IMG/VR virus record: IMGVR_UViG_3300042475_000821
Coordinates: 1-25,844 of that record
Strand: one strand, 5' to 3'
Origin: a virus
Length of the DNA: 25,844 nucleotides
Shown here: positions 2,988 through 16,620 of the stretch, in pieces
How positions within the stretch are numbered: position 1 is the first letter of the stretch
Layout of the letters: each line of letters begins with the position of its first letter
Program-made: the position numbers and the translations under genes
The notes under the pieces: model-generated
Told to the model about the DNA's origin: nothing
Database searches by the model: none
The model's input: only the letters and a program-made list of their open reading frames with translations

Positions 2988-5080
2988 CCAGGTATCTCCA
3001 CGTTTCCTGTAATCTGTGCCCCGACCTTGGCGGCCTTAAGCTGTGCCTCGGCTTGGAACTCTGCCGTCTTGAGTTGCAACTGGGCGGCGGCCTTCTCGCG
3101 CTCCAACTGAATGTCTGCGGCGGCTTTCTCGCGCTGTAACTGGATGTCTGCCTGTGCCTTGGCTTGGGAAACCTGAATGTCCGCTTGCGCCTTTGCCTGA
3201 GTGACCTGCATCTGGGCTTGTGCCTGTTGCATCAGGGCGGCGGTAGCAGGGTCAGGCTGTGGCTGTTGGGGTTGTAGAAGTTGCTGTTCCATCTCCGGCG
3301 TAATCTCGCGGAAGAACTCAGAGGTGTCCTTAAACCCTGCGGACTCGATGAACCGTCCCAAGGTGTTGCGGTACTGGCTAGGCGAGACTAGCGGGTTGGC
3401 TATGCCCATCTGGGACATAATCTGCTCTTGCTTTTGCAGGATTGCGGCCACCATCGCCATCTGTTGCTCTCTGTTTCCTGTGCCCAGACCTACGTTTACC
3501 GTCAGGTCGTACTCGTTGCTCCACTCGCGTGGGTCGATAGCCACGAACTTGCCACGCATCCGCACGATTCTTTCCTTGTCCTGATATTTGCAGACAAGGT
3601 GCAGGATGGACTTGAACAGGTCTTTTACCCCAGTCTCAGCGAATATCCTAGCAATCAACTCAACCTTTGCGGCTCCTGCGTTCTGAACCATCGCCACCGC
3701 TGTCGCGGTAGTGTTTTGCAGGATGTTGGGGTCTAAGCCCTGAGAAGCCTGTGTAACGCCTGTGCGCTTCTGCTGTATCTCGTCCATGTAGGCGAGCATT
3801 GGGAAGGCTTGTCCGGCCACCAGAGGTACTTGTAGGGGCGTTATAGCGGCGTTGTTCTTGACCCGCACGATACCGCCAGGTGTGACCGTCAGCATATCGT
3901 CTAGGTTTACCTGCCCATCGACTACGGCCATCCGAGCGTTGTTGGACAGGTACAGGTTATCCAACATCTGACGTGTAATCGTGGTCTTAATCTTCTGGAT
4001 GTCCACCACGCGGTCAGCCAAGCTATGCCCGAAGAACTTGTGGGGCATGGGGATTGGGCAGACTGAGCAAAACGGGATGAAGTCTGCTTCCTCGTTCTCT
4101 AGGATTGTGCCGCCAGCGTAGAACACACGGCGCAGTTCGGCAATGCCATCCTCGTCGTAGTCTGTCCTGATGTAGCACTCGAACGTCTCAATCTCGTCCA
4201 TGCTTGTGTCAAGGCTGGGGTCGTCCGGCTGCTCCCCGTTGGGGAACCGCGCCACCCTCTCAGGGGTAAATGTCAGGTCGTCGTAGGCTGGCAACTCGTC
4301 AATCTCGTCAGCCTTAAAGCCCATGCTGATTAACTCGGAACGGGTTGTCAGTCTACGGTGGGCTACAAAAGGCGCGTCAGCGATACGGCGTGCCTTCTTG
4401 GAGATTAGGAACTCCTCGGGTGGTACGTTCTCAACCTTGACCGAACCCTTCTTGTTTACCTTCTTGACCGTGACGTTATACGAGAACACGGGTTGCATTG
4501 TCATTTCTGGAGGCACGCCCGTCTGCTGGGCAAGCATCATCTGCTCTGGGGTCGGAGGAACGGGGACTTCGCCTATCTGAGTCTGGCGTTGCTTGACCAC
4601 TTCCATCTGCCCGTCTGCTAGTAGCAGGGTCAGTTCTTCCTCGGACAGGTTCTCGTACTTCTCCTTGTCCACGGATGTCTCGTCGTTCCACCAGACCTTG
4701 ATGACACCAGCCTTTTGAAGGAGCGCGTCCTTGAACCAAGTCTGGAATACCTCAAAACCTGGGTTGTCGTTCATCAGCACCCAGTTGCAATACTCGGTGG
4801 CTTGCTTGGCCTTCTCCTCGTCGCCAGGTGCTTTGGGTTCGAACCGCACCACGTCGTCGGACTGTGTAAATACACGCAGGAGTTGTGGCAATGCGCCGTC
4901 TACGGCTTCTGCGACTTCGCCTGTAACGATAGTAGACCGCCCCTCGACTTCATTGCCGTAGGGTTCGCGGTTGTACGCCATCAGCGCATCGCGGCGTTCC
5001 TCTACCGTCTCGGTATTGATGTAGCCAATGGCGTTATCAATCTCGTTTTCAATGATGGCTTGTAGGTCAAATTCTTGCAT
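2984..5080 (-). CDS. Portal protein (P22-like head-to-tail connector)
   Basis: 698 residues; forms the dodecameric ring at the DNA-entry vertex that docks terminase and tail. The sequence reads as a P22-type portal: RRDALMAYNREPYGNE near the N-terminus, ALPQLLRVFTQSDDVVRFEP, the FKDALLQKAGVIKVWWND strand, FECYIRTDYDEDG around residue 300, and MLDNLYLSNNARMAV in the middle. The C-terminus is an unusual helical tail with tandem 11-residue repeats (about residues 625-668) rich in Q, A and K, which probably forms the barrel or internal crown. The ATG abuts the terL stop (TAA-ATG) with only a weak ribosome site, so translation is probably coupled. Confidence 0.93.
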   Translation of the reverse strand: MQEFDLQAIIENEIDNAIGYINTETVEERRDALMAYNREPYGNEVEGRSTIVTGEVAEAVDGALPQLLRVFTQSDDVVRFEPKAPGDEEKAKQATEYCNWVLMNDNPGFEVFQTWFKDALLQKAGVIKVWWNDETSVDKEKYENLSEEELTLLLADGQMEVVKQRQTQIGEVPVPPTPEQMMLAQQTGVPPEMTMQPVFSYNVTVKKVNKKGSVKVENVPPEEFLISKKARRIADAPFVAHRRLTTRSELISMGFKADEIDELPAYDDLTFTPERVARFPNGEQPDDPSLDTSMDEIETFECYIRTDYDEDGIAELRRVFYAGGTILENEEADFIPFCSVCPIPMPHKFFGHSLADRVVDIQKIKTTITRQMLDNLYLSNNARMAVVDGQVNLDDMLTVTPGGIVRVKNNAAITPLQVPLVAGQAFPMLAYMDEIQQKRTGVTQASQGLDPNILQNTTATAVAMVQNAGAAKVELIARIFAETGVKDLFKSILHLVCKYQDKERIVRMRGKFVAIDPREWSNEYDLTVNVGLGTGNREQQMAMVAAILQKQEQIMSQMGIANPLVSPSQYRNTLGRFIESAGFKDTSEFFREITPEMEQQLLQPQQPQPDPATAALMQQAQAQMQVTQAKAQADIQVSQAKAQADIQLQREKAAADIQLEREKAAAQLQLKTAEFQAEAQLKAAKVGAQITGNVEIPG

Positions 5081-12007: not shown

Positions 12008-12562
12008 TCAAGCAGCGGAAAGTTCTGCTTTTCGCTTGTCCTTGGCCACCGTGATAGCGGCGATAAACCCCGCATCTGATTGAGACGCCTGGTACGCTGC
12101 TTTCCAATTTGATTGTAAATCTGTGACATTTTTGCTCTCCTCGATTAGTTTTACATAAGCCTCTGGCTCAGGTTTTGAGCCATCCTCGGGTAAATCTTCT
12201 CCTGCGTAGATGTATAAGCCTAGACCGTGTAACGCAATCCCTTTAGCCAGGCAACGCATGATGGCCGTGTTGACCTGAAAAGCGTCTGGGTTAGGGATAG
12301 CCTTGTTCTTGTGGTCAAGGACGGGAAGTTGGCAAGTAAGCGTCTTGCCGAACATCGTAACGTCCACGAATACCATCTTGGTGTCGCCGATTGAAACGTA
12401 CGGTTTATCGTACGATTCACCGAACATCTTGACAGTCCACTCTGCTTGCGGGTCTGCCTTGATTGCCTCTTGCCAAGCCCATGCCCACGACAGGTATGTA
12501 AGGTTCCCCTTCTTCTCCGTGTGGTCGTTGACGTTAATCTTAAGTAAATCTACTGCGTTCAT
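12008..12562 (-). CDS. Single-strand annealing protein, DUF1071 (Sak3) type
   Basis: 184 residues. The signature YLSWAWAWQEAIKADPQA (about 23-40) and the following beta-rich core, with CQLPVLDHKNKAIPNPDAF, VNTAIMRCLAKGIALHGLGLYIYAGEDLP, identify the DUF1071 family, which belongs to the Rad52/Sak group of phage recombinases. It would coat single strands and anneal complementary DNA, working with a 5'-3' exonuclease, here probably the YqaJ enzyme at 16538. The C-terminal helices are variable in the family. GAGGAGG precedes the ATG, which overlaps the upstream stop (ATGA). Confidence 0.88.
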   Translation of the reverse strand: MNAVDLLKINVNDHTEKKGNLTYLSWAWAWQEAIKADPQAEWTVKMFGESYDKPYVSIGDTKMVFVDVTMFGKTLTCQLPVLDHKNKAIPNPDAFQVNTAIMRCLAKGIALHGLGLYIYAGEDLPEDGSKPEPEAYVKLIEESKNVTDLQSNWKAAYQASQSDAGFIAAITVAKDKRKAELSAA

Positions 12563-12777
12563 TTGAACCTCCTCTTTAAGTCTTCGTATTCCTCAAGTGC
12601 CTCAAGTAAAGATTTTACTGCAATTCTTATATAGTCGTCGTCACCGTTAGCGTCCCGTATTGTCTGGGCGCAACCAAGCATCTTGCCGTGATTGACAGAC
12701 ATCAGGCGTTTAAGCTCTCGCAGCTCCTCTATCTCTTGCTGTTCTTGTTGTTGTGCGTGGGCTTGGCAATCAGTCAC
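12559..12777 (-). CDS. Small helical protein upstream of the annealing protein
   Basis: 72 residues from GTG 12777 with GGGAGG six bases upstream. It is rich in Glu, Gln and Leu: a QQQEQQEIEELRELKRLMS coiled coil, then a polar turn with GDDDYIRIAV and a second helix ending EDLKRRFK. Its stop overlaps the start of the annealing protein (ATGA), so the two are co-translated. It may be a partner of the recombinase; no family recognised. Confidence 0.7.
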   Translation of the reverse strand: MTDCQAHAQQQEQQEIEELRELKRLMSVNHGKMLGCAQTIRDANGDDDYIRIAVKSLLEALEEYEDLKRRFK

Positions 12778-12883
12778 GGTTAGCCTCCCATGCGCGTTCT
12801 TGCCAGTAGGAGTCGTCGTCTTCTTCTTCTCCAGACTCGGGTTCTTGGGGTGGTGTGTAATACCAGTCTTCGTCGTATTTCAT
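12770..12883 (-). CDS. 37-residue acidic micro-protein
   Basis: ATG at 12883 with the strong site GAGGAGG, six bases before it (the upstream gene at 13142 has the same GAGGAGGGCA leader). The product begins MKYDEDWYYTPPQEPESGEE and continues with EDDDS and an aromatic-basic end, YWQERAWEANRD. It is strongly acidic, with four Trp or Tyr pairs. It overlaps the next gene by eight bases. An acidic DNA-mimic or inhibitor peptide is possible, but this is speculation. Confidence 0.65.
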   Translation of the reverse strand: MKYDEDWYYTPPQEPESGEEEDDDSYWQERAWEANRD

Positions 12884-12900
12884 ATGCCCTCCTCAGAGCA

Positions 12901-12914
12901 GGGGCCGAAGCCCC
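12901..12914 (-). promoter_or_regulatory. UUCG-capped hairpin between two early genes
   Basis: On the minus strand GGGGC, TTCG, GCCCC form a five-pair stem with the exceptionally stable UUCG tetraloop. It lies between the stop of the 13142 gene (12921) and the strong ribosome site of the micro-gene at 12883. No U-run follows, so a terminator is unlikely. An RNA stability or processing element is more probable. Confidence 0.6.
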
Positions 12915-12920
12915 GGTTAA

Positions 12921-13142
12921 TTACTGTTGTAAATTTTTTGCAAACTCGATTGCTGCTTGCCCTGGTTTTGTATCTGTTACAAATCTAGCACCACGACCAT
13001 CAACATACGCACTCCAGTCTTTCTTGAACAACCCTTTAATTTCAAACGGAGCGGAAACTTTGTACTGAACTCCAGATTCGCTAATAATTCTGAATATTTC
13101 TGCTGTTGTGCTGGTTGCTTCTTGGTGTTCTACTAATTTCAT
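12921..13142 (-). CDS. First leftward early gene, unknown function
   Basis: 73 residues. GAGGAGG stands six bases before the ATG. The sequence starts MKLVEHQEATSTTAEIFRII and continues with YKVSAPFEIKGLFKKDWSAY and RGARFVTDTKPGQAAIEFAK, a probable small alpha-beta fold. As the first gene of the leftward arm it is expected to be expressed soon after infection. No recognised family; host-takeover factors are often at this position. Confidence 0.7.
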   Translation of the reverse strand: MKLVEHQEATSTTAEIFRIISESGVQYKVSAPFEIKGLFKKDWSAYVDGRGARFVTDTKPGQAAIEFAKNLQQ

Positions 13143-13264
13143 TTTGCCCTCCTCGGCGTATATGGCGGGATGCCATGAACAGAATCTTACACTACTTTTC
13201 AGGGTTGTGTAAGAAATATACCTAGGACTAACCCTAATGTATGGTTATACAGTAGAATGTAAGA
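13143..13264 (-). promoter_or_regulatory. Divergent control region between leftward and rightward arms
   Basis: This 122-base AT-rich stretch separates the two arms. Leftward, TATATT (13220-13215) is a good -10; CATACA (13243-13238) sits 17 bases upstream as a weak -35, and the spacer end AGTCCTAGG resembles strong sigma-70 promoters. A second leftward pair is TTACAC with TAAGAT (13089-offset region 13212-13184), 17 bases apart. Rightward, TAGAAT (13253-13258) stands six bases before the ATG at 13265, which would give a leaderless or nearly leaderless message. TATACC and GGTTATA form an imperfect inverted repeat, a possible operator. Confidence 0.55.
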
Positions 13265-13573
13265 ATGTCCCCGACCCAAAGAAGCCTTAAATACCTCCGC
13301 GACCAGGGCTATTCGGTCTGGACAGTCGAGCATTGGAACAGTTTTGCTCGTATTCGCCAGGACTTGTTTGGCTGTATAGACCTCTTAGCCATTGGAAACG
13401 GGGACACCCTAGCCATTCAGACCACCACGGCATCAAATATGTCGGCCAGAAAGCACAAAATCCTAGAAAACCAGTATTACCCAGAAATGGTACGGAGCAA
13501 CTGGAAAGTGCATTTACACGGCTGGATAAAGGTTGGCAACCGTTGGGAAGTAAAAGTTGTTGAACTTAACTGA
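13265..13573 (+). CDS. Nuclease-like protein at the head of the rightward arm
   Basis: 102 residues. SPTQRSLKYLRDQGY, then VEHWN, then RIRQDLFGCIDLLAI with TLAIQTT follow the strand-and-acid pattern of small PD-(D/E)XK-like folds: Asp33, Asp39 and Gln52-Thr-Thr in place of the usual E-x-K. The protein ends WEVKVVELN. Related small proteins recur in phage early regions and are usually unannotated. The ATG lacks a ribosome site and follows a -10 like box very closely, so leaderless translation is possible. A DNA-binding or junction nuclease role is suggested, and the lack of a Lys leaves activity uncertain. Confidence 0.75.
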   Translation: MSPTQRSLKYLRDQGYSVWTVEHWNSFARIRQDLFGCIDLLAIGNGDTLAIQTTTASNMSARKHKILENQYYPEMVRSNWKVHLHGWIKVGNRWEVKVVELN

Positions 13574-13587
13574 ATCCGTGGTATCCT
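13560..13587 (+). promoter_or_regulatory. Extended -10 promoter for the small RNA
   Basis: TTGAAC (13560-13565) and TATCCT (13582-13587) are separated by 16 bases, and TGG directly precedes the -10, giving an extended -10 element. It overlaps the stop of the upstream gene. Transcription would start near 13594. Four of six -10 bases and four of six -35 bases agree with sigma-70 consensus. Confidence 0.5.
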
Positions 13588-13593
13588 AGCGTT

Positions 13594-13756
13594 GTCAGCG
13601 GTGTGGCAGCCGGTGGAAACAATGATAGGCACGGAGCAAGCCCATATAAGTCTAGGGCGTGCGTGGTTGTGGAAATGATTGGATACCGTGTCCTACTATT
13701 GTTTTCATAGCTGCTCATGCCAAGAGCCACGCTCTAGTCTTATGTGGGCTTTTTCT
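13594..13756 (+). ncRNA. Putative structured small RNA, about 160 nt
   Basis: No coding frame fits here. Reading the bases by hand, 13600-13610 pairs with 13710-13721, and after a small internal loop 13616-13634 pairs with 13686-13706 (with two single-base bulges and one mismatch), making one rod-like hairpin about 30 pairs long. A second, competing helix pairs 13638-13661 with 13728-13751: 23 of 24 positions, two of them G-U. The two cannot form fully at once. A local terminator hairpin and U-run end the RNA. Its length and rod form recall 6S RNA, but the large central bubble of 6S is not evident. Identity unknown. Confidence 0.6.
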
Positions 13757-13759
13757 TTT
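13725..13759 (+). terminator. Intrinsic terminator of the small RNA
   Basis: AGCCAC (13725-13730) pairs with GTGGGCT (13744-13750) with one bulged G and a 13-base loop. TTTTT, C and TTTT follow. The downstream arm is also the 3' arm of the longer 24-position helix, which would serve as an even stronger terminator stem. It would stop transcription from both the nuclease-like gene and the small-RNA promoter. Confidence 0.7.
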
Positions 13760-14005
13760 GCTGACCGCACTCCGAGCGAGATTAAGCACCTGAATGGGTG
13801 GCGCGGAACAGAACACAGGATGTTGTCTCACCAGCAACCATCTTAGCAGCCTGTCAGCGAGGGACTGCACAACCTAGTGTCTGCAACGGGTGATGACTCG
13901 GATGCTAGGGGCAAATCGCTGCCTTATGGGGTATGTAGGGATTGGATTGCTTCTGTATCCTCTCCTGGCATCAGAGTGATAACGGCTATCACCCTAGGGG
14001 ATGCT
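13760..14005 (+). other. Non-coding stretch rich in local hairpins
   Basis: About 245 bases with no supported gene before the ATG at 14006. Visible pairings: CCGC (13765-13768) with GCGG (13802-13805), enclosing CACC and GGTG; GATGTTG with CAACCATC (13819-13842); GCAGCC with GG-CTGC (13846-13869); CCTAG (13873-13877) with CTAGG (13904-13908); and GTGATA (13976-13981) with TATCAC (13987-13992), the last just before the ribosome site. This may be a second structured RNA or a long 5' leader. I see no clear promoter in it. Confidence 0.4.
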
Positions 14006-14380
14006 ATGTTCAGAAATAGAGAGTACGGTAGTCAGCTTAAGGACTTCTCAGGTCTGAGATGGGGAGCAATATCTCCGACAGACATAGACGCAATCCTAGA
14101 GTTCTCTAACCGACTGTTCATAATCGTAGAGGCAAAATATAAAAATGCCCAAGTCCCGTTTGGGCAGAAACTATGTCTAGAGCGACTCTGCGATGCCATC
14201 CAGAGCGAAACCAAGACCTGTGTGCTAATGCTTACGTCGCACGAAAGCGATGGGGATATAGATATGGGTTTGACAATTGTTAGACAATATAGGGAAAATG
14301 GAGTCTGGCACGAATCGCCAGAAATGACTTTGAGGGAAGTCATCGACATTATGAGGAGAAAATATCTTGGAACTAACTGA
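14006..14380 (+). CDS. PD-(D/E)XK family nuclease
   Basis: 124 residues from ATG 14006, which has AGGGG five bases upstream. A GTG extension to 13877 is rejected because it enters the hairpin region and has no ribosome site. The core reads GAISPTDIDAILEFSNR (Asp26, Asp28), then LFIIVEAKYKN (Glu42, Lys44): the classical D...E-x-K active site on adjacent strands. An RLCDAIQ helix and a second sheet follow. It would cut DNA with metal ions. It heads the rightward replication and recombination operon, so it may process recombination intermediates or break down host DNA. Confidence 0.75.
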   Translation: MFRNREYGSQLKDFSGLRWGAISPTDIDAILEFSNRLFIIVEAKYKNAQVPFGQKLCLERLCDAIQSETKTCVLMLTSHESDGDIDMGLTIVRQYRENGVWHESPEMTLREVIDIMRRKYLGTN

Positions 14381-14540
14381 TGTAACACGGCGAGATTATT
14401 TCGCTGCTATGGCATTACAAGGCTTGCTTGCAAATCCTAAATTAGCCGAAGCGATTCAAAAGCGAGAAGGCTGGATAGAAGAATCCGCATGGCAATGGGC
14501 TGATAAGGTCTTGGAAATGAGGGAGAAGAATCTTGGATGA
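14367..14540 (+). CDS. 57-residue conserved phage protein (RRDYFAA type)
   Basis: Begins at TTG 14367 with AGGAG eight bases upstream, overlapping the nuclease end by 14 bases. The sequence begins MELTDVTRRDYFAAMALQGL, then ANPKLAEAI and a second helix, AWQWADKVLEMREKNLG. The pattern RDYFAA-x-A-LQ-x-LLA with a C-terminal W/Y-x-W-AD-x-(M/V)L helix is very common among small phage early proteins of unknown role. Two amphipathic helices are expected. Confidence 0.75.
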   Translation: MELTDVTRRDYFAAMALQGLLANPKLAEAIQKREGWIEESAWQWADKVLEMREKNLG

Positions 14541-14913
14541 TTTCAACACCTTCTGGGCACTCTACCCAAAAAAAGTAGCCAAGGCCGACGCTAGGAAAGC
14601 GTGGTTGCAGACCAAAGATATACGGCCAGAGTTAACAAATTTGTTAACTGCCATCACAGCCGCTTGCAAGACCGAGTCTTGGATGAAGTCAGGCGGGGCG
14701 TTCATACCCTACCCTGCCACATGGTTGCGTGGGGAGCGTTGGGACGACATTCACGAAGTCACTCTTCCAAACGTAGTCAACGAGAAACCTTGGCATGAGA
14801 CGGCTACGGGCATAGAACTAAAGGGTAAAGAGTTAGGTTTAGACCCTAGCCAGTTCGAGTCCTTCCCACACTTTAAGGTTGCGGTTATGAGAGCCGCGCT
14901 AAAGTCCGCGTGA
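14533..14913 (+). CDS. Phage replication protein, FWxxYPKK/WLRGERWDD type
   Basis: 126 residues from TTG 14533 (GGGAG seven to eight bases upstream), overlapping the previous gene by eight bases. FNTFWALYPKKVAKADARKAW (about 4-24) and GGAFIPYPATWLRGERWDD (54-72) are the conserved blocks of a domain found alone or at the C-terminus of lambda O-like and DnaD-like replication initiators in many phages. It probably helps load the replicative helicase at the phage origin. No helicase or loader is visible in the window. The C-terminal 50 residues are less conserved. Confidence 0.75.
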   Translation: MDDFNTFWALYPKKVAKADARKAWLQTKDIRPELTNLLTAITAACKTESWMKSGGAFIPYPATWLRGERWDDIHEVTLPNVVNEKPWHETATGIELKGKELGLDPSQFESFPHFKVAVMRAALKSA

Positions 14914-15290
14914 TTCTCTCCCAACACAACAGGAACCTAGCCCGTGAGATGGTGGATAACGCACCTGACGGGCATATTCTTGAGGTACGGCCACCTAAAC
15001 GCAGTCTTGACAGCAACAGGTACTACTGGGCGGTCTTGGGTGATATATCCGAGCAGGTTGTTCCAGGTAGGTCTTATGAGCCTAGTATCTGGCACGAATA
15101 CCTACGCGCCTTGTTTCTGCCTGAACGCATGGTGGAGTTGCCTGATGGGTCACTCAAAATGTTAGAACCAAGCACAAGTGAGTTGAACCAAGCGTCCTTC
15201 TCTGAGTACGTTGAAAAGGTTGTAATGTGGGCTTTGCAAAACGACGTTAGATTTAGCGACAACACAAGGGGGCTAGGTGACAAAAGATGA
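14910..15290 (+). CDS. ninB: NinB-like recombination protein
   Basis: 126 residues. RPPKRSLDSNRYYWAVLGDI (about 27-46) and EPSIWHEYLRALFLPER (57-73), with SFSEYVEKVVMWA near the C-terminus, match NinB/Orf, the lambda protein that binds single-stranded DNA and takes the place of RecFOR in Red recombination. The GTG start overlaps the preceding stop (GTGA) and has no clear ribosome site, so it depends on coupling. It neighbours nuclease and replication genes as in lambdoid phages. Confidence 0.85.
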   Translation: MILSQHNRNLAREMVDNAPDGHILEVRPPKRSLDSNRYYWAVLGDISEQVVPGRSYEPSIWHEYLRALFLPERMVELPDGSLKMLEPSTSELNQASFSEYVEKVVMWALQNDVRFSDNTRGLGDKR

Positions 15291-15576
15291 AAAAAACCAT
15301 CTTTCTAAAGTTGCAGCCCTCGGATGCATGGTCTGCCGCAGAATTGGGTACTCTGATAGCCCGTCTGAAATTCATCATCTGCGGGCCGGACAAGGATGGG
15401 GTAGGTCTTCGCACTACCTTGCAATACCACTATGCCCAGAACACCACAGAGGTAAAACTGGAGTTCACGGACTCGGAACCAAGGGATTCCCAAAGCACTA
15501 CGGATTTACAGAACAAGATTTGCTTGACGACGTAAATAAGGAACTGAATGAAAGCAATAGCGATAGCAACAACTGA
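15277..15576 (+). CDS. Ref-like (RecA-dependent) HNH-type nuclease
   Basis: 99 residues from GTG 15277, AAGGGGG upstream, overlapping ninB by 14 bases. Conserved blocks are HLSKVAALGCMVCRRIG (8-24), EIHHLRAGQGWGRSSHY (31-47), IPLCPEHHRGKTGVHGLG (50-67) and HYGFTEQDLL (74-83). These match the RecA_dep_nuc family related to P1 Ref, which nicks displaced DNA at RecA filaments. The paired Cys and His residues would hold zinc and the catalytic metal. It probably acts with NinB and the YqaJ exonuclease in recombination. Confidence 0.85.
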   Translation: MTKDEKNHLSKVAALGCMVCRRIGYSDSPSEIHHLRAGQGWGRSSHYLAIPLCPEHHRGKTGVHGLGTKGFPKHYGFTEQDLLDDVNKELNESNSDSNN

Positions 15577-16231
15577 GGGGAAGTGCCTTCCTGTCCTAGC
15601 CGCCTCCGTGACCTTCTACGTCCCGCAGGATGTGACGGTATTCCTAGCGGGTAGCGACATTATCTTTCCGCGCCACAGGACGGTGAACCTGCCCAACGAC
15701 GCGACTAACTTTGGCGACGCTTATAACGCGGTGGTCAAGCGGGCGTTTGAGGAGGCGGACGAGGTCGTGGTCTGTAACGACGATATTGTGTTCAACCCTA
15801 CCACCTGGAAGTTGCTTGGCGAGGACGTTGCGTTTTTGCGAGACAAAAGCATCCCCCTCGGATGGGCATCCGCTAGGTCTGATTATGCCCGAGGATTGCA
15901 GAACATTAGGCTAGGGCAGGGAAAAATGGAGTGGTTCAAGTACGAGACAGAAAATCTTATTAACATCACAGATGTTATAGCCCCGATTTGTAGTTACATA
16001 TCCAAGGACGCATGGGTGGACTTCCCGCCTATCAACTGGTACTCGGACGACGTGCAATGCTTGGACATCCAAAAGAAGGGCTTCCAGCACGCCATCAGCA
16101 GGGCTTACGTCCACCACGTCGGTTCTCAAACGTGTGGACGCAACGCGCAGGAACTTATACAATCTGCACAACCTTGGATTAAAGCAAATAGGCCGGAGTT
16201 ATACGACTTATGGTTTCGGAAGAAAGACTAA
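15548..16231 (+). CDS. Glycosyltransferase, GT2-like
   Basis: 227 residues. An N-terminal beta-alpha-beta fold (AIAIATTEGKCLPVLAASV) leads to NFGDAYNAVVKRAFEEADEV and VVCNDDIVFNPTTW, where Asn77-Asp78-Asp79 fits the DxD-type metal site. YSDDVQCLDIQKKGF and VHHVGSQT (about 199-206) resemble the acceptor-side motifs (ED-x-D and H) of GT-A enzymes. AAGGA lies before the ATG, inside the end of the Ref-like gene. It is odd to find it among recombination genes; a second glycosyltransferase is at the left edge of the window. The likely targets are phage DNA bases or a host or virion glycan; the sequence does not decide. Confidence 0.8.
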   Translation: MKAIAIATTEGKCLPVLAASVTFYVPQDVTVFLAGSDIIFPRHRTVNLPNDATNFGDAYNAVVKRAFEEADEVVVCNDDIVFNPTTWKLLGEDVAFLRDKSIPLGWASARSDYARGLQNIRLGQGKMEWFKYETENLINITDVIAPICSYISKDAWVDFPPINWYSDDVQCLDIQKKGFQHAISRAYVHHVGSQTCGRNAQELIQSAQPWIKANRPELYDLWFRKKD

Positions 16232-16620
16232 AGAACTGGGCGTTCTATTGTGCGTGGGGTCATGTTGGCCCTGAACACCGTACCCAATGCGCCAGCGCGG
16301 AGGGGAACTACGAGTCCGAGGATGTCTTCGAGGGCGAGGAGCCAAGGATAGAACCCGATATGTTGGACGGGCAGGAAGTAGAGAACGCGGTTAGGGTTTT
16401 ACCCGATATAAGCCGCAGGGTTTTGAAGGCAAGGTATATACAGTACCCGTACAACTTGAGCCACAATGTAGCCCAGAGATTACGGATGAGTACGGATAAA
16501 TTAGAGGCAGAATTACACATAGCCAAGAGGAGGCTGTATGACCGATTACAAAGAAATTGTTCAGGGAACAGAGGAGTGGTTACAGGCGAGGTTGGGGTTC
16601 TGCACAGCCAGCAAAGTTAG
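16210..16620 (+). CDS. HTH regulator, sigma-70 region 4 / antitermination-like
   Basis: 136 residues. The N-terminus contains LKNWAFYCAWGHVGPEH, a short motif also seen in phage late regulators. The centre is acidic. Residues about 60-110 (VENAVRVLPDISRRVLKARY, then NVAQRLRMSTDKLEAELHIA) form a region-4-like helix-turn-helix followed by a basic helix, RRLYDRL. Proteins of this form include Q-type antiterminators and RinA-like late activators. Its position near the end of the early operon suits a switch to late transcription. It overlaps both neighbours (22 and 83 bases), and the last 25 residues, read within the next gene, look unconstrained. Confidence 0.65.
   Translation: MVSEERLKNWAFYCAWGHVGPEHRTQCASAEGNYESEDVFEGEEPRIEPDMLDGQEVENAVRVLPDISRRVLKARYIQYPYNLSHNVAQRLRMSTDKLEAELHIAKRRLYDRLQRNCSGNRGVVTGEVGVLHSQQS

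Follow-up and report, generated by a model that had tools for sequence, protein, structure and literature searches.

In the leaders of the replication genes of plasmids pT181 and pIP501, two mutually exclusive folds are possible, one of which is a terminator, and the choice between them is made by a counter-transcript of the opposite strand. At the start of an early transcript of phage HK022, the put RNA, which is shorter than the RNA described here, causes processive antitermination via the polymerase. The c4 RNAs of P1/P7 and N15 are related to the immunity system of P4. To our knowledge, few cases of RNA switches in phage leaders have been described. In the P4 system, the CI RNA pairs with the flanking seqA and seqC, which terminates transcription of the replication genes (PMC4825925). 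Gifsy-1 IsrK is a phage small RNA with an intrinsic terminator, and some of its transcripts read through into an mRNA (PMC4825925).

The locus analyzed here resembles the P4 immunity leader (seqA-CI RNA-seqC) in that an untranslated leader of replication genes combines premature transcription termination with one strand complementary to two others (PMC4825925). In P4, however, the trans-acting RNA is an internal one produced by processing, whereas here the switch would reside within one leader of ~165 nt that has its own terminator and closing helix. P4 is the nearest biology, and the likeness is one of logic only. A scan of the RNA against Rfam, at the gathering threshold and at E ≤ 10, returned no credible family, and no match of the P4 CI/C4 type was obtained, only RF00489 (17.3 bits for a threshold of 50) and RF02620 (15.5 bits for a threshold of 115). 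The leaders of pT181 and pIP501 share the exclusive folds with this locus and differ from it in their counter-transcripts; here, promoter-like sites are at chance level. The put RNA similarly lies at the start of an early transcript and affects termination. IsrK has in common with this locus an intrinsic terminator and partial read-through; unlike what we propose below for the cis switch, its short form activates translation of the read-through mRNA in trans, and no exchanging-helix attenuator of this design was seen in the passages of PMC4825925 considered here.

The window, i.e., the whole stretch of 25,844 nucleotides under analysis, is an IMG/VR virus contig with head and packaging genes leftward and one gene set rightward. 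In the rightward direction, a 102-aa ORF (13265-13573) is followed by the RNA and an ORF starting near 14003. Next come genes for a protein of the replication initiation/primosomal type (14533-14913), for NinB (14910-15290) and for a nuclease dependent on RecA (15277-15576). Its portal protein shares 54% identity with that of Methylophilales phage Venkman and as much as 61% with those of uncultured spring-water phages, making a betaproteobacterial host likely. The promoter can be read directly on the plus strand, where the parts of the RNA described below are also located. It consists of TTGAAC (13560-13565) and, after 16 nt with TGG ahead of the -10 box, TATCCT (13582-13587), and overlaps the end of the 102-aa ORF. 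The predicted transcription start is at 13594, 7 nt past the -10 box. A simple consensus scan did not list 13560-13587 among its sites. The promoter is nevertheless supported by conservation, as the hexamers recur in relatives, even when an insertion of ~46 nt moves the promoter away from the stop codon that precedes it (L010 and L011). According to the open reading frame listing, no long ORF spans 13594-13757. The U-tract TTTTTCTTTT (13750-13759), read directly and present at this place in the collected copies, marks the predicted 3′ end of a terminated RNA of ~165 nt. Promoter, noncoding region and terminator thus agree with the initial annotation. In the leaders of relatives that we examined, a replication gene of like kind is mostly next downstream. 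The rightward replication/recombination operon has this RNA as its 5′ leader.

Two folds of this leader share several strands. In state I, B5 (13602-13637) pairs with B3 (13688-13714) in a long rod, which comprises 13600-13610 with 13710-13720 and 13613-13634 with approximately 13686-13706, and the P1 helix joins the 5′ strand GTCAGCGG (13594-13601) to TTGCTGAC (13758-13765). As the latter is located past the U-tract, P1 is possible only in read-through RNA. T5, on the 5′ side of the terminator helix (13638-13661), is then held within the rod loop, where it can make a small GCCC/GGGC hairpin, and the 3′ strand of the terminator (13722-13751) has a small hairpin as an alternative. In state II, T5 pairs at 23 of 24 positions with 13728-13751, followed by the U-tract; B3 pairs instead with C5 (13662-13687) to form hairpin C, nested in the terminator helix; and the 5′ end folds into hairpin D (within 13595-13616), whose 3′ side takes up the 5′ strand of P1, so that D and P1 are mutually exclusive. 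In the computed structure of the terminator fold, nucleotides 13617-13632 of B5 are left unpaired. The initial annotation had placed both long helices correctly to within a base and had rightly described their strands as interleaved, with a connector of 3 nt; P1, hairpin C, which competes for the 3′ strand of the rod, and hairpin D come in addition. In contrast, its description of the RNA as stand-alone is contradicted by the position at the head of an operon and by a closing helix that extends past the terminator.

The minimum free energy of 13595-13760 is -69.1 kcal/mol, compared with -49.2 ± 3.5 for shuffled sequences (z = -5.6; none of 200 shuffles was as good). When pairing of the terminator is forbidden, the rod becomes the best fold at -65.1 kcal/mol. 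The two states of the window are thus close in energy: the gap is 4 kcal/mol for the terminated RNA and shrinks to 0.7 kcal/mol when P1 can form (-72.2 and -72.9). For the C5 region, the z score of the R-hairpin in group T1, defined below, ranges from -1.0 to -5.6 depending on the sequence, with -4.3 for the window.

Related viral contigs were fetched with two neighbor proteins and three DNA patterns. After parsing, they yielded 88 distinct copies, which fall into two sequence groups of common architecture, T3 (50 distinct cores) and T1/T2 (38 distinct cores), with the window in T1. T2 shares motifs with T1 and forms chimeras with it. In three of them (L002, L006 and L022) the 5′ part comes from one of the two types and the inner helices from the other, a pattern suggestive of recombination at the boundaries of helices. 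The window fits the T1/T2 type, with the conserved GTCAGCGG...TGGCA and CATGCCAAGAGCCACGC and with the P1, D, rod, C and terminator helices. GTCA.C....TGGCA and GCTCATGCCA are invariant in T1, as is CCTGTCAAGCCCAAGTCT in T3, a motif that had also served as a search pattern. The RNA showed no conserved site for a ligand or a protein. In related phages, RNAs of both groups follow the same promoter and gene; T3 is also found after other genes and other promoters, and even then the RNA starts immediately 3′ of the promoter. A covariance model built on 35 T3 copies (R1) did not recover the window at E ≤ 1, and thus the groups are linked by architecture and position rather than by detectable sequence. 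The R1 model gave nothing above noise in Venkman and four other annotated phages (one match, E = 0.14). In genome contigs, the promoter pattern was found at one locus, in a Pseudidiomarina MAG (L182), where the R1 search was negative; it was also negative for L153 and L169, which have the promoter string TGGTATCCTAGTGTTGTCGG and no recognizable RNA downstream. Searches of INPHARED and PLSDB with the RNA sequences by blastn returned no credible match; one match of 26 bases lies inside a DNA ligase gene and was rejected as a relative.

Conservation of the helices was assessed with swap tests, in which each strand was paired with the partner strands from other copies, using 5000 permutations. Cognate strands paired better than swapped ones in the rod (-32.5 versus -21.3 kcal/mol in T3, n = 49; -26.1 versus -17.6 in T1/T2, n = 37), the terminator (-30.7 versus -22.0 in T3; -39.3 versus -27.4 in T1/T2), hairpin C (-7.9 versus -5.6; -17.5 versus -11.4), hairpin D (-8.4 versus -7.3; -8.3 versus -5.7) and P1 (-7.8 versus -7.1; -12.7 versus -11.0). 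In all ten tests, for five helices in two groups, none of the 5000 permutations reached the observed mean, a count that is not a calibrated probability because sequence relatedness remains in the swap and shuffle controls. For P1, the swap test gave no signal within a single type, in which the 5′ strand is invariant, and became informative with more divergent copies, where compensatory pairs are found (GTCATCGG/CCGATGAC, GTCAGCAG/CTGCTGAC, ACTGGAAG/TTTCCAGT and GTTGGAAG/TTTCCAAC). P1 is absent or uncertain in several copies of T3 (L196, L203, L246 and L236, among others) and shifted in four others (L189, L195, L198 and L220), and the rod of L212 is mismatched.

Base pairs were also counted after plain MAFFT alignment of 35 sequences from T3, with shuffled and slid alignments as controls. 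For state I, 90.3% of the cells were paired, compared with 35 to 51% in the slid controls; there were 105 double-change cells versus 34.5 in shuffles (reached in none of 500), and 21 pairs had double changes, versus 12.9 in shuffles and 6 to 12 in slid controls. For state II, 94.7% were paired, with 70 double-change cells versus 18.3 (again none of 500 shuffles). We consider these many double changes across unlike leaders, as read from the alignment, a stronger argument than the permutation counts. Furthermore, column 3 of the alignment covaries both with column 143, in P1, and with column 18, in hairpin D, and columns 93 and 94, which correspond to B3, covary both with columns 23 and 22 (rod) and with columns 76 and 75 (hairpin C). 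As one base cannot pair twice, these columns indicate two states. The conservation of two mutually exclusive states in evolution is thus strongly supported by sequence comparison. The initial annotation had predicted bistability, to be judged by compensatory change in related phages, and both folds are indeed kept in this manner.

Folding during transcription was modeled with equilibrium partition functions on growing RNAs for ten copies, a model of nested folds that leaves pseudoknots and kinetics aside. In most copies the rod stays until the 3′ half of the terminator emerges, and terminator and hairpin C then replace it. The rod of L005 is preferred even in the terminated RNA, whereas the terminator is strongly preferred in L026; according to the model, the set point would therefore vary between phages.

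A stable hairpin with a U-tract ahead of coding genes, conserved in relatives, and an evolutionarily conserved, mutually exclusive antiterminator fold argue that the RNA is probably a bistable transcription attenuator acting in cis in the leader of the replication/recombination operon. We infer that transcripts actually terminate at this site, that the balance is regulated, and in which direction. The ~165-base RNA most likely acts as an on/off switch, as follows. Transcription would begin at ~13594, and B3, as it emerges, would pair with the distant B5 (state I) or the neighboring C5 (state II). In state I, confinement of T5 in the rod loop would prevent full formation of the terminator helix, and the polymerase would read through; the 5′ end could then pair past the U-tract, and P1 would fix the RNA in its antiterminated form. 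T5 and the terminator 3′ strand would instead form an intrinsic terminator in state II, and the ~165-nt RNA would be released. Of the three functions proposed in the initial annotation, the best match is attenuation of the rightward operon, given the terminator, the position before replication genes and a closing helix specific to read-through RNA.

Our preferred, unproven candidate for the signal is the terminated RNA itself. State II would free most of B5, and this strand could bind in trans to B3 of nascent leaders that carry the same allele, from the same or an identical phage, so that T5 is released and termination is forced, in the manner of the P4 CI RNA. Negative feedback and homotypic immunity would ensue. 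That the terminated RNA is such an allele-specific regulator, involved in feedback or superinfection immunity, is possible though not probable in our estimation, and it is compatible with a cis attenuator. It is suggested by the outer part of the rod, which is hypervariable between phages and yet matched between strands: among 45 T3 alleles, cognate strands gave -13.5 and swapped strands -5.2 kcal/mol, with none of 5000 permutations as good. In a clade of 13 T3 leaders with one promoter, T5 and the terminator 3′ strand are invariant while B5 and B3 have nine variants each, mostly matched in the outer rod (-15.2 versus -8.4). Nine phage pairs with identical T5, counted on the basis that both flanks were at least 93% identical, have a mean gapped identity of 0.72 in the outer rod. 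The unpaired stretch of B5 in the terminator fold also agrees with a role in trans. However, such variability can reflect neutral compensatory change or recombination in a helix indifferent to sequence as well as selection for new specificities. In addition, the window revealed no lysogeny module of the repressor type, and thus immunity may have no role. A counter-transcript initiating within the leader was considered and rejected: the candidate antisense promoter (13723 to 13695) is at chance level, as are promoter-like sites across 12500-15000, and its -10 box, on the minus strand, falls in the hypervariable B3 and is not conserved.

Alternatively, a phage or host protein loading on the leader or the promoter might override the terminator, like a Q-like antiterminator, or the RNA might bind the polymerase as HK022 put does, with the rod as a platform. 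We regard such factor-dependent antitermination as rather unlikely. The leader does sit at the start of an operon, related phages have an annotated Q-like antiterminator shortly downstream of the homologue of the 13265-13573 ORF, and two of these proteins have weak similarity to ORF 16210-16620 of the window (E = 7e-4 and 0.002 in single comparisons). This mechanism, however, leaves unexplained the conservation of hairpin C and of two alternative partners for B3 and for the 5′ end.

The conservation of both long helices and the short connectors might also fit one static pseudoknot in a structural or nuclease-resistant RNA, as by geometric reasoning the loop lengths permit two helices of similar length side by side. 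Such a fold is very unlikely, because two covarying, mutually exclusive partners exist for B3 and likewise for the 5′ end (columns 3, 93 and 94), which argues for selection on two or more states. The terminator/antiterminator architecture and the invariant stretches in T1 and T3 would also be compatible with a metabolite riboswitch; we give even less credence to it, since no riboswitch is among the Rfam matches, the long rod is free in sequence, and T1/T2 and T3 have no recognizable sequence in common. The initial annotation had also proposed a 6S-like polymerase decoy, which is of similar length and whose long rod one of the states recalls, or an RNase III substrate; neither accounts for the conserved terminator fold, and the decoy is extremely improbable given the absence of any Rfam 6S match at E ≤ 10 and the presence of exchanging helices rather than a single rod with a conserved central bubble, which was not seen.

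Beyond the bistable RNA, the rest of the untranslated leader (13766-14002), which runs as far as the likely start codon of the following ORF, forms a second module. It is interchangeable, as other relatives have RF02932 or other sequences in this place. The type present in the window, which is common to 16 copies, has no Rfam match over 13766-14002, and its single-sequence fold is ordinary (z = +0.23). By eye, matched changes are seen among its relatives (L191, L195, L197, L220, L228, L237, L167 and L180; also L272, L280, L288, L299, L022, L039 and L125), namely CAGCGA/TCGCTG, TACGA/TCGTA and CAGAGA/TCTCTG, and the module ends near an GGCTNNCACCC-TTGGGG motif before the start codon. In eight relatives, Rfam RF02932 (Betaproteobacteria-1 RNA) is directly 3′ of the bistable RNA (L005, 3691-3812; L027, 5497-5618; L011, 667-785; L021, 673-791; L043, 5460-5581; L126, 3910-4031; L127, 1448-1566; L227, 5760-5882), and by motif an RF02932-like sequence is present in 21 collected copies. 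RF02932 is thus the second module of a phage replication-operon leader in these eight relatives, a separate module adjoining the bistable RNA, for which the window gave no match. In four T3 copies, the start codon was classed as following the U-tract nearly directly, which the ORF listings support for L196, L203 and L246. Other sequences observed in this place are a tRNA T-arm-like sequence (GGTTCAAGTCC, GGTGCAAATCC) in L012 (~4110-4260) and downstream of the RNA in L180, and another structured-looking leader (CAGTCCTTTTCGGGCTG ... CACCGAAGGAGATTG) ahead of another gene (MHYYTFNIGDYR...) in L004 (~1850-2010), L015 and L088.

Judged from the searches and comparisons above, the RNA is a new family of a known general kind, with unusually rich evolutionary evidence for two exclusive folds, documented by natural variation across the 88 distinct copies, which come from environmental phages. 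RF02932, an orphan among Rfam RNAs, gains a position and a context. More speculatively still than for a trans-acting role at this locus, these leaders might represent a widespread, unrecognized class of phage immunity or copy-control RNAs, whose attenuated product acts in trans on sibling leaders with a specificity set by the rod. The hypervariable matched rod predicts allele-specific repression in trans; if so, near-identical phages with different rods would not repress one another. This prediction would bear on replication control and sibling exclusion in phages of freshwater bacteria.
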